A stretch of DNA of 64,000 bases from Thermus caldilimi. Lineage in GTDB: Bacteria; Deinococcota; Deinococci; Deinococcales; Thermaceae. Location of the stretch: assembly GCF_004684245.1 (NCBI RefSeq), contig NZ_CP038452.1, forward strand, positions 1,722,796-1,786,795, read 5' to 3'. Positions 49,205-53,455 of the stretch are shown one piece after another (position 1 is the first letter of the stretch; each line of letters opens with the position of its first letter). The translations under genes and the position numbers were made by a program. Under the pieces are notes generated by a model, which worked only from the letters and a program-made list of their open reading frames with translations, had not been told where the DNA came from and did no database searches.

Positions 49205-49927
49205 ATGCTCCTCCTGGCTGGCCCCACGGATACCGGCAAAACCACCCTGGCCTTAAAGCTTTTAGAAAAGGCCAAGGAAGCCTACCTCCTGGACCTGGAC
49301 CCGGGACAAGGCTCCCTACCCGGGGCCTTCACCCTCTTCCACCACCGGGAAGGAACCCTCACTCTCCTACGCCGCCACCTTCTGGGGGCCCTGTCCCCCA
49401 GAGGGATGGAGGCGCAGGCGGTGGTGGGGGCCCTGCGCCTGGCGCGCCTCATCCCCGAAGGAAGCCCCGCCGTGGCCGACACGGATGGCTACCTGGACCC
49501 CGGGTTTCGGCTCTTACAGATTGAGGCCCTGGTGCCCACCGAGGTGCTGGTCCTGGGGTGGGAGGAACTTTACCAGGCCCTTTCCTGGCGCAAGGACCTA
49601 AGGGCGCGCCTGGCCCCGCCCCTTCAGGGGGTTCGCAGGAAAACCCCGGCCGAGAGGCGGAAAAACCGCCTGGAAAGGCTTTTTGCCCACTTCCAGGAAG
49701 CCAGGCCCCGCTCCCTTCCCCTTGGTCGCGTGCCCGCGTTCCCTATGGAACCCCCCGAGCCCCACCGGCTTTATGGGCTCCTGGACGAGGAGGGGTTCCT
49801 CCTGGGCTATGGGCGGCTTCTCGCCTGGGAAGGGGGGGAGGGCCTTTTCCTCACCCCCGCCTTGGAGGAGGTGGCCAAGGCGGTGCCCACCCGGCTTCTT
49901 CTCCCTATCCCCGCACTACCAGGTTGA
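49205..49927 (+). CDS. Clp1/Grc3-like P-loop kinase
   Basis: The 240-aa product opens [44 protein letters not shown]. This matches the CLP1_P pattern of polynucleotide 5'-kinases (P-loop GPxDxGKxT, Walker B-like DLDPGQ, then PG). Eukaryotic and archaeal members phosphorylate 5'-OH RNA ends during RNA maturation. A later [19 protein letters not shown] basic stretch could bind nucleic acid. Substrate and role in Thermus are unknown. The -10-like TAGTTT (49191-49196) is 8 nt upstream. The end overlaps leuS by 23 bp convergently. Confidence 0.75.
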
Positions 49928-52541
49928 GGATCTTGCCGGGGACGTAGATCTCCTTCACGATCTCCTTACCCTCCAAGTGGGCCTGGACGTTTCGCACCTT
50001 CCGGGCCTCCGCCAGGGCCACCTCCAGGGGGGCGTCCTTGGGGATCTGGATGGTGCCCCGCACCCTGCCGTTCACCTGCACCGCCACCTCCACCACCTCC
50101 TTTTCCAGGGCCTTCTCGTCCAGCTCGGGCCAACCCGCCTCAAAGAGGCTATCCGGCCAGAACCAGTGCCAAAGCTCCTCGGCGATGTGGGGGGCAAAGG
50201 GGAAGAGCATCTGCAGGTAATAGCGGAGGGCGGTGCGGTACACCGGGGTCACGGGGCGCTCCTTGCGGTAGTCGTAGAGGGCGTTCAAAAGCTCCATGAG
50301 GGCGGCGATGGCGGTGTTGAAGCGCAGGGCCTCGAGGTCCTCCGTGACCTTCTTCAAGGTGGCGTGGAGCTTCCGGTAAAGCTCCCGGTCCGGATCCTCC
50401 AGGGCCTCCGCCGGGAACTTCCCGCTGGTGGCCAGCAGGGCCTCCTTGTCCTCGGCCACCCGGCGCCAGATGCGGTTCAGGAAGCGCCAGGCCCCCTGCA
50501 CCCCCTCCTCCGTCCAGACCATCTCGTTCTCCGGGGGCGCGGCGAAGAGGATGGTGATGCGGGCGATGTCCGCCCCCTCCTCCTTCACGAAGGGACCCAC
50601 CATCACCCCGTTACCCTTGGACTTGCTCATCACCGCGGGCTTCCAGAAGTGCAGGGTGCCGTCCTCGTGGGGCCTGAGCTCCGCCCCCATCTTCCGCACT
50701 TCCTCCAGGGAAAGCTCCCTCTCGGGGATCTCCAGCCGGATGCGGGTGGGCTCGGGCAGGCGCACCCTCTCCCCTTCCACCTCTACGGGGCCGAAGTCGG
50801 TCCAGGCCAGGACCATGCCCTGGGTGAAAAGGCCCGTAAAAGGCTCCTCCACCTTCACCATCCCCAGGTCGTGGAGGAACTTGGTGAAGAAGCGGCTGTA
50901 GAGGAGGTGAAGCACCGCGTGCTCCACCCCGCCGATGTACTGGTCCACCGGCATCCAGAAGTTGGCCTTCTCAGGGTCAAAGGGGAGCTTCTCGTTTTTG
51001 GGATCGGCGTAGCGCAGGTAGTACCAGCTGGAGTCAAAGAAGGTGTCCATGGTGTCGGTGTCCCGCCGGGCGGGGCCGCCGCACCTGGGGCAGGTGGTCT
51101 CGTAGAACTCGGGGTGGGCCTCCAGGGGGCTTTTCCCCTTGGGGCGGATGTCCTCCACATCCTTGAGGTCGGGGAGGAGGACGGGAAGCTCCTCCTCGGG
51201 CACGGGCACCACCCCGCAGGCCTCGCAGTGGACCATGGGGATGGGGGTGCCCCAGTAGCGCTGGCGGCTGATCAGCCAGTCCCGGAGGCGGTAGGTGACC
51301 CTGGCCCTCCCCAGGCCCTTCTCCTCCAGCCAGGCCACCACCTTCCGCTTGCCCTCCTCGCTTTCCGTGCCGTCAAAGGGCCCGGAGTTCACCATGACCC
51401 CAGGCTCCTCGTAGGCGGCCTCGAGGGGCTCCGGCAGGGGCTTTCCCGGGCGCTCGATCACCTTGCGGATAGGCAGGCCGAACTTCTTGGCGAACTCAAA
51501 GTCCCTCCCGTCGTGCCCGGGCACGGCCATGATGGCCCCGGTGCCGTAGCCATAGAGCACGTAGTCCGCGGTCCAGATGGGGATCCTCTCCCCGGTGGCG
51601 GGGTTTTGGGCGTAGGCCCCCAGGAAGACCCCGGTCTTCTCCCGGCCCTCCGCCTGGCGCTCGATCTCCGTCTTGCGCCGGGCGGCCTCCACGTAGGCCT
51701 CCACCTCGGCCCGCCTTTCCGGGGAAGCCAGCTTGAGGGTCAAGGGGTGCTCCGGGGCCAGGACCAGGAAGGTGGCCCCGAAAAGGGTGTCGGGCCGGGT
51801 GGTGAAGACGGTGATGGCCTCTCCCAGGCCCTCCACGGGGAAGTGGATCTCCGCCCCCTCGGAGCGGCCGATCCAGGCCCTTTGCATGGCCTTCACCTTT
51901 TCCGGCCACCGGAGGCCCTCGAGGTCCTCAAGGAGCCTATCCGCGTAGGCGGTGATGCGCAGGTACCACTGCACGAGTTCCCGCTTCTCCACCGGGGTGT
52001 CCTCGTGCCGCCAACAGCGGCCCTCCACCACCTGCTCGTTGGCCAAAACGGTCTGGCACTTGGGGCACCAGTTCACCAGCCCCCCCGCCCGGTAGGCTAG
52101 GCCCTTTTCCCACATTTTTATGAAAATCCACTGGTTCCAGCGGTAGTAGTCGGGCTCGCAGGTGGTCACCTCCCGGTCCCAGTCGTAGAGGATGCCCATG
52201 AGCTCGAGGCTTTCCTTGGCCTGGCGGATGTTCTCGTAGGTCCAGTCCTTGGGGTGGACGCCGAACTTGAGGGCGGCGTTCTCCGCGGGCAGGCCGAAGG
52301 CGTCCCAGCCCATGGGGTGGAGGACCTCATAGCCCTGCACCCGACGGAAGCGGGCCAGGACGTCCCCCATGGTGTAGTTCTTCAGGTGGCCCATGTGCAG
52401 GTCCCCGGAGGGATAGGGAAACATGACCAGCACGTACTGCTTGCCCCGCTTCCCGGGCGCCTCCTTGGCCTTCATGAAGCCCTTTTCCTTCCAAAAGCGT
52501 TGCCACTTGGGCTCTATGGCGTGCGGGTTGTACTTCTCCAT
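49905..52541 (-). CDS. leuS: Leucyl-tRNA synthetase
   Basis: The 878-aa product (the length of T. thermophilus LeuRS) has the class I HMGH motif in [11 protein letters not shown] (residues 49-52), the CP1 editing domain with [12 protein letters not shown], an inserted zinc-site region CEACG...CPRCGG, and the KMSKS variant [13 protein letters not shown] 52541 follows GGGAGGAGCGC; in-frame residues further upstream run through the leader and are rejected. Expression is predicted to be set by leucine-responsive attenuation in the 5' leader. Confidence 0.97.
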
Positions 52542-52554
52542 GCGCTCCTCCCTC

Positions 52555-52582
52555 AAAAAAACCCTTCCCCCAAGGGGAAGGG
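52555..52582 (-). terminator. Attenuator terminator upstream of leuS
   Basis: On the minus strand CCCTTCCCC and GGGGAAGGG form a perfect 9-bp stem with a TTG loop, followed at once by seven T. It ends 13 nt before the leuS ATG, so it can only act on leuS itself. The ribosome binding site follows directly. Confidence 0.93.
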
Positions 52583-52603
52583 ACAGCCAGGCCCCTTCCC
52601 GCC

Positions 52604-52630
52604 TTAGGGGATTAGCCTGGCCAAGCTCAT
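52604..52630 (-). CDS. leuS leader peptide MSLARLIP
   Basis: A nine-codon frame (eight residues plus TAA) starts exactly where the mRNA is predicted to begin. Its leucine codons are TTG and CTA, both uncommon in this genome where CTC and CTG dominate. Such codons would make a ribosome sensitive to scarce charged tRNA-Leu. The CTA codon lies at the edge of the first hairpin arm. No SD is needed for a leaderless start. Confidence 0.75.
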
Positions 52631-52672
52631 GGGAACATGATACTGCAATCCGGCAAAAAAACGTGGGGCGCC

Positions 52673-53455
52673 CTAGTCCTCCACCGCCCTCGCCACCACC
52701 GCCCCCAGGAGGAAGACCCAAAGCACCAGATACAGGCCGAGTAGCGCCAGGACAAACCCCGCCAGGGGTCCGTAGAGGAGTTCGTACTGGGAGCGGGGAA
52801 GGAGCTTGGGAAGCCCAAGCCGCACCCCCTCGAAGAGAAGGGCCGCCACCCCTGCCCCCACGCTCAAGGGCACCAGGTGGCGAAACCCTTTAAGGCCGCG
52901 AAAAAAGGCGTAGGTGAGGAGAAAGAGCAAAAAGGCCAGGAAGAGGGGTAAAAAAGCCTCCAAAGGCGAAAAGGCCCCCCGCCACTCCGGAGGGAGGAAG
53001 CGGAGGAGAAACCCCAGGGCCAGGCCCAAAAGGGCCAGGAGGATGAGGGCCAGGCCCAGGACCACCGGCATGAGGAGGCCCAAAAGGCGGTGGCGAAAAC
53101 CCGGGGGGCGGCCAAAGATGAACCCCAGGGCGTAGCTCAGGGCGGCGAAGAAGTTGCTCCCCGACCAAAGGAGGAAGAGGGCGCTCACCAGGGTGAGGGG
53201 AAAAGCTCCGCGGGTGAGGAAGCGCAAGAGGTCCTGGGCCAGCTCCGGCCGGGCCGGGAAAAGACCCTCGGTCAAGGCCTGCACCCCGGCCAAAAAGCCC
53301 TCCCTTAGGGCCTCGCTCCCCGAGAGGAAAAGGCCAAAGACCCCCACCAGGAGAAAGAGAAGGGGCATGAGGGAAAGCAGGGCGTAGTAGGCCAGGGCGG
53401 CGGCGAAGAAGGGGACGTGGGCCTCCTGGTACAGGTTGAGAAGCCGTCTAAACAA
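52673..53455 (-). CDS. YihY/BrkB-family membrane protein
   Basis: From TTG 53455 the product is 260 aa with six membrane segments. It has the family opening [28 protein letters not shown] and the later [19 protein letters not shown] and [26 protein letters not shown]. The family was once misnamed ribonuclease BN; its function is unknown. TTG is chosen because an SD (AAAGGAGG) precedes it and it overlaps the TPR stop by 8 nt; the in-frame extension to 53962 is antiparallel to the TPR reading. Confidence 0.83.

Follow-up and report, generated by a model that had tools for sequence, protein, structure and literature searches.

In Thermus caldilimi, the gene for leucyl-tRNA synthetase (leuS) is preceded by a short region that a sequence-only reading had taken for a leader-peptide attenuator. 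The locus raises the question of whether translation of a very short reading frame decides if RNA polymerase enters leuS. We analyzed this region within the window, i.e., the whole 64-kb stretch of T. caldilimi DNA under study, and compared it with leuS regions throughout the Deinococcota. Its conservation in Thermus and across the phylum, the retention of a CTA codon, and the geometry of a stalled ribosome lend good support to reading the leuS leader as a ribosome-mediated attenuator of transcription whose leader peptide is leaderless, an explanation to which we assign a probability of roughly 0.87.

Anatomy of the leuS leader

The downstream gene was identified as leuS by the TIGR00396 equivalog model at 1076 bits (cut-off 548). 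The −10 box, the short frame, the competing stems, and the T7 tract were all found where the sequence-only reading had placed them, on the minus strand. The features are as follows in window coordinates (peptides here and below are written without the stop):

52642–52637 (minus): −10 element TATCAT, 6 nt 5′ of the leader ATG
52630–52604 (minus): leader ORF ATG AGC TTG GCC AGG CTA ATC CCC TAA, encoding MSLARLIP, without a Shine-Dalgarno (SD) sequence, predicted to be leaderless
52613–52615 (minus): putative regulatory CTA codon (Leu, rare), invariant in all 25 aligned rows
52615–52622 (minus): arm 1, GGCCAGGC, 5′ side of the 1:2 stem, within the leader ORF
52585–52592 (minus): GCCTGGCT, 3′ side of the 1:2 stem
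52593–52600 (minus): arm 2, GGGAAGGG, 5′ side of the antiterminator, beginning 3 nt past the leader stop codon
52574–52582 (minus): arm 3, CCCTTCCCC, common to antiterminator and terminator
52562–52570 (minus): arm 4, GGGGAAGGG, 3′ side of the terminator hairpin (terminator −16.5 kcal/mol)
52555–52561 (minus): T7 tract of the intrinsic terminator
52547–52551 (minus): leuS SD sequence GGAGG, 3 nt past the T tract
49905–52541 (minus): leuS, leucyl-tRNA synthetase, 878 aa, ATG at 52541

The 6-nt gap between TATCAT and the ATG, already recognized from the sequence, places the predicted transcription start (+1) on the A of the leader ATG. The frame, which had been counted as nine codons, comprises eight residues and a stop. 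Throughout Deinococcus-Thermus, −10 motifs located 6–7 nt before ORFs drive leaderless mRNAs (PMC12340547), and this finding, together with the −10 spacing and the absent SD sequence, suggests that the leader is leaderless. From the sequence we likewise infer the transcription start, the translation of the leader, and its response to leucine or tRNA charging.

The three pairings named earlier all exist in the sequence. The core of the 1:2 stem is formed by GCCAGGC (52621–52615) with GCCTGGC (52592–52586), the antiterminator by GGGAAGGG (52600–52593) with CCCTTCCC (52582–52575), and the terminator by CCCTTCCCC (52582–52574) with GGGGAAGGG (52570–52562), all on the minus strand. The leader stop is followed by the G-rich GGCGGGAAGGGGCCTGGCTGT and then by CCCTTCCCC TTG GGGGAAGGG TTTTTTT, so that hairpin and T7 tract form an intrinsic terminator 5′ of leuS. 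As had been noted, the T7 tract (52561–52555) stands just before the ribosome-binding site (SD at 52551–52547). Since only 3 nt separate them, leuS transcripts from the leader promoter must cross the terminator, and the gap between terminator and leuS is too short for another promoter.

An alternative is control without translation, by a T-box or riboswitch sensing tRNA or a ligand, or by a protein-binding RNA, and leuS of Firmicutes is often under T-box control. Here, however, no Rfam family, the T-box covariance model included, matched the locus at the gathering threshold. The stretch from +1 to the terminator measures only about 68 nt, and what is conserved in it is a reading frame, not unpaired loops. 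We therefore regard translation-free sensing as extremely unlikely.

Conservation of the frame and of its CTA codon

We located leuS in 27 Thermus genomes. The search of the family covered 50 genomes and found it in 49, and that of the phylum found it in 99 of 111. The leader frame, its start position, the CTA, the stop, and the terminator are present 5′ of leuS in all 27 Thermus genomes. Counting Thermus, the phylum yielded 56 distinct leaders that combine CTA with a terminator. Outside Thermus, 18 distinct forms come from the rest of the family, whose genomes we take from their content to be Meiothermus and allies, seven from family f4, which is presumably the Marinithermaceae, three from f2/f3, and four from f5. 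The −10 box lies 6 nt from the start in 49 of the 56 leaders, 7 nt in five, and 8 nt in two; the start codon is ATG in 52 and GTG in four, and all three types of stop codon occur. A short ORF has thus been kept as a frame between promoter and structural gene. Five leaders carry CTA without a clear T run (L126, L132, L189, L193, and L196), and two genomes (G037 and G036) as well as most of f5 are without the element or without its T run.

We asked how often such an arrangement arises by chance. A layout detector (a TANNNT −10 box, 5–7 nt, a short frame, and a T5 run) found a single match on both strands of the 64-kb window, namely the leuS leader, with or without the CTA condition. A stricter detector, combining an in-frame CTA with a hairpin and a T run, was positive for 27 of 27 Thermus leuS regions, for none of 5400 mononucleotide shuffles of these regions, and, even when any Leu codon was permitted, for none of the 80 leuS regions that came from other phyla; over both strands of 194 kb of Thermus loci, its sole matches were the 27 leuS leaders. 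A contig scan for close relatives, in which no Thermus records came up, serves as a negative control only. Folded as a whole, the leader has an energy that is unremarkable for its composition (z −1.06), so that stability alone could not have picked it out; the signal is arrangement and conservation, not raw stability.

These results bear on the possibility that the hairpin is a plain intrinsic terminator, ending transcription of the upstream gene or yielding a short RNA, with the small frame there by chance. A same-strand gene of the BrkB/YihY family (PF03631) does end upstream at 52673, and strong terminators are common. A promoter nevertheless sits between that gene and the terminator, and the T run adjoins the SD sequence of leuS. 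The frame, start spacing, CTA, and stop are moreover kept throughout Thermus and in other genera, against the empty result with shuffled regions, which makes a plain terminator very unlikely.

The sequence of the peptide itself is not preserved. The Thermus peptide usually reads xxARLxP, with VRASLRP in two genomes (G016/G026); a sister genus has MSTARLNP, other Thermaceae have MQWFIHLELP or MQGCIRLAQT, and f4 and f5 have MTRTGLPPA and MINFSQRLLLAGGPGR, respectively. While the peptide diverges between genera, every leader contains an in-frame CTA. The comparison with relatives that the sequence-only reading had called for therefore came out in favor of the frame, start, Leu codon, stop, and stems, but not of the peptide sequence.

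CTA is a rare codon, accounting for 3.8% of the Leu codons when 36 long ORFs within the window are pooled, and for one of 81 in leuS. Within the leaders it makes up 73 of 90 Leu codons, a count for which one CTA per leader was a precondition that no Thermus region failed. Across the aligned Thermus leaders, the T and the A of this codon never change although they are unpaired, whereas the codon after it is free to vary. The control codon before leuS thus matches the gene presumed to be regulated. The TTG codon, which had been named alongside CTA, is private to T. caldilimi; other species have CCG, CGG, TGG, TCG, or ACC in its place, and we rejected it as a second control codon for this reason. 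By this comparison, CTA appears to be the only regulatory codon of the leader.

A conserved codon could still act through its residue, if leucine, an antibiotic, or another small molecule caused the nascent chain, e.g., ARLxP before the stop, to stall the ribosome, in place of a stall at hungry codons. ARLxP is well conserved inside Thermus, and Pro as the last residue could delay termination. Outside the genus, however, the residues are wholly different while CTA is retained, and peptides of 7–17 residues barely reach the exit tunnel. The conserved choice among synonymous codons points to sensing through the tRNA rather than the residue, and we judge an arrest peptide to be very improbable.

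Several loci of relatives show further peculiarities. Most f5 genomes have a leuS that itself looks leaderless, with TANNNT a few bases 5′ of its ATG and without an attenuator (L182, L185, L186, L188, L190–L192, L194, L195, and L198). At three loci of the family (L126, L132, and L135), a tRNA gene with an apparent TAA (Leu) anticodon lies just 5′ of leuS, and two of the three retain a leader with CTA that has no clear T run. Six others (L128, L129, L133, L136, L139, and L140) show a conserved TACAAT/TAGAAT-like box in the interval from attenuator to leuS, a possible second promoter bypassing the attenuator.

Ribosome position and the competing stems

The anatomy, the conservation, the identity of the codon, and, for an assumed 12-nt footprint, the geometry can be read directly from the DNA. 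We took the footprint to start at the first base of the codon in the A site and calculated folding energies at 37 °C, which differs from the temperature at which Thermus grows. When CTA occupies the A site, free RNA starts approximately at the leader stop. For the antiterminator of T. caldilimi, the calculated energy is −19.1 kcal/mol in this position and −3.7 kcal/mol once the ribosome has reached the stop. The same contrast is seen in every family, with mean energies at CTA and at the stop of −17.3 and −3.2 kcal/mol in Thermus, −15.9 and −3.6 in other Thermaceae, −14.1 and −2.2 in f4, −19.9 and −1.2 in f2/f3, and −21.9 and −1.8 in f5, respectively. In a codon-by-codon scan, CTA+1 was the furthest point that a ribosome could reach without disrupting the antiterminator in 24 of 24 Thermus leaders, 18 of 18 from other Thermaceae, and six of seven from f4. 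Where Thermaceae leaders contain two spaced CTA codons, the first one fits the geometry. By calculation with the assumed 12-nt footprint, the antiterminator thus depends on the position of the ribosome.

The conserved frame, CTA, stop, antiterminator, and terminator support the original interpretation as ribosome-mediated attenuation, in which a single rare Leu codon very probably decides between transcription stop and read-through into leuS. RNA polymerase would start at the first base of the leader ATG, and the resulting 5′-terminal AUG would be where a ribosome initiates. With ample charged tRNA-Leu for CUA, the ribosome would pass CUA, reach the stop, and cover the G-rich arm behind it; no antiterminator could form, and the terminator would end transcription 5′ of leuS. 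If the charged tRNA were scarce, the ribosome would pause with CUA in the A site and its footprint would end approximately at the stop codon, freeing the G-rich arm to pair with the 5′ arm of the terminator, so that RNA polymerase would enter leuS. When no ribosome is present, the leader codons of most Thermus species would pair with the 3′ end of arm 2 and shut the antiterminator arm, leaving leuS off by default. Thermus leaders always end with a Pro codon and a stop (52604–52609 in the window), where slow termination might prolong the covering of the antiterminator arm.

Equilibrium folding at 37 °C gave a terminator probability of about 0.99 in T. caldilimi even with a stalled ribosome, and no switch appeared there between the stalled and the unstalled ribosome; clear switching was seen in only about one third of the Thermus species. 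Switching must therefore be kinetic, with the antiterminator forming first. Such antiterminator-first folding is familiar from other attenuators.

The antiterminator pairs are kept in 24–25 of the 25 Thermus rows, some via G-U pairs. Compensatory double changes are few and affect one of the 15 consensus pairs in the genus. When applied to the alignment of Thermus leaders, RNAalifold gave a mixture of antiterminator and other pairs with little double-sided covariation, because the genus is too conserved. The case therefore rests on the cross-genus comparison and on the geometry. The 1:2 stem, which pairs GGCCAGGC with GCCTGGCC or its G-U variants, is found in most Thermus species. The corresponding CCAGGC/GCCTGG pairing proposed earlier accordingly holds for most of the genus, but it is missing in G016/G026 and in the genera outside Thermus. 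From this distribution, the 1:2 stem appears dispensable, and the working core would be the antiterminator against the terminator. Calculation gave a weak antiterminator for both G016 and G026 (about −10 kcal/mol, z near 0), perhaps due to a shortened arm.

Known attenuators and related leaders

Leaderless leader peptides before leuS have a precedent in another phylum. In Streptomyces lividans TK24, RNA-seq revealed LeuL2, a leaderless leader peptide followed by a hairpin and a U stretch 5′ of leuS (PMC8079986), and leuS attenuators had been predicted as candidates in S. coelicolor and S. avermitilis in 2005 (PMC1262725). The expectation of novelty in the sequence-only reading was therefore too high. 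The Thermus leader shares with LeuL2 the gene, a short leader with Leu codons (predicted to be leaderless in Thermus), and a hairpin with a U stretch before leuS, a likeness that implies no sequence match; LeuL2 (MRAVRLLLSEPR) contains a run of three Leu, whereas Thermus has one CTA. Leaderless poly-cysteine short ORFs of mycobacteria have been shown experimentally to be Cys-responsive attenuators (Canestrari et al., 2020, in PMC9031893), and this review describes attenuation acting on the translation of downstream genes (PMC9031893). As proposed for the leuS leader, they use a leaderless leader ORF as an amino-acid-responsive attenuator, but with cysteine and with a codon run instead of one codon.

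Within the genus, the lysine cluster of T. thermophilus is reportedly controlled by leader-peptide attenuation, in work attributed to Tsubouchi et al. in the J Biol Chem of 2005. It would belong to the same class of mechanism but serves lysine biosynthesis, not an aminoacyl-tRNA synthetase. Enterobacterial pheST, leu, and trp attenuators likewise turn a stall at leader codons into a choice between antiterminator and terminator, and the E. coli leu leader also employs the rare CUA; they differ in having a 5′ UTR with a Shine-Dalgarno sequence and several control codons. We found no description of a Thermus leuS attenuator in the open-licence literature. The leaderless leader attenuator as a type, leuS included, is not new, being known from Streptomyces and mycobacteria; the novelty lies in the phylum, in how deeply the leader is conserved, and in its one-codon sensor. 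A single rare codon combined with such deep conservation makes the Thermus leader unusual.

This arrangement would couple the supply of leucyl-tRNA synthetase to the charging of one rare tRNA-Leu, in a genus whose ribosome and RNA polymerase are standards of structural biology. An 8-codon leader read from +1 would offer a tiny natural system for transcription-translation coupling from the first nucleotide. Leaderless attenuators, known from Actinobacteria, might then be a general solution in Deinococcota as well. We lean towards an ancestral, phylum-wide set of minimal attenuators with leaderless ORFs of 7–17 residues, in which the Thermaceae sensor would be one rare codon (CUA for leuS) 2–3 codons before the stop, the ribosome at the stop codon rather than a pause hairpin would operate the switch, and metG, leuC, trpE, and perhaps lysJ would share the plan.

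An inverted search for the −10/ATG/T-run pattern recovered leuS, metG, and trpE, although most of its matches were other sites. Candidate leaders of like kind carry TGG before trpE and CTA before leuC. The layout is found before metG in seven Thermus genomes, including T. caldilimi (L178, MKGMPLG, C1:1072884, minus strand); these leaders (L164–L168, L176, and L178) encode MKGMPxx with an internal Met codon and have hairpins and a T run directly 5′ of metG. The start Met may complicate sensing in this case. Three Thermus genomes (L169, L170, and L171) have two-CTA leaders (MRRVLLSLDRAGPV, MRRGILLDLGRAGPA, and MRRGFLLDLGRAGPA) with the −10 box 8 nt from the start and a terminator directly 5′ of leuC. 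Before trpE, two Thermus genomes encode MSPFPALWWPG (L179, T. caldilimi, C1:1587618, minus strand) and MALPSALWWPG (L180), both with two Trp codons, a −10 box 6 nt 5′ of the ATG, and a terminator, which makes them candidate leaderless trp attenuators. Upstream of T. caldilimi lysJ (L121/L175, C1:2141228, minus strand), TTGACA-17-TACCCT precedes the frame MAARGKT with one AAA (Lys) codon, behind which a hairpin and a T8 run adjoin the ribosome-binding site; this leader is possibly a lysine attenuator.
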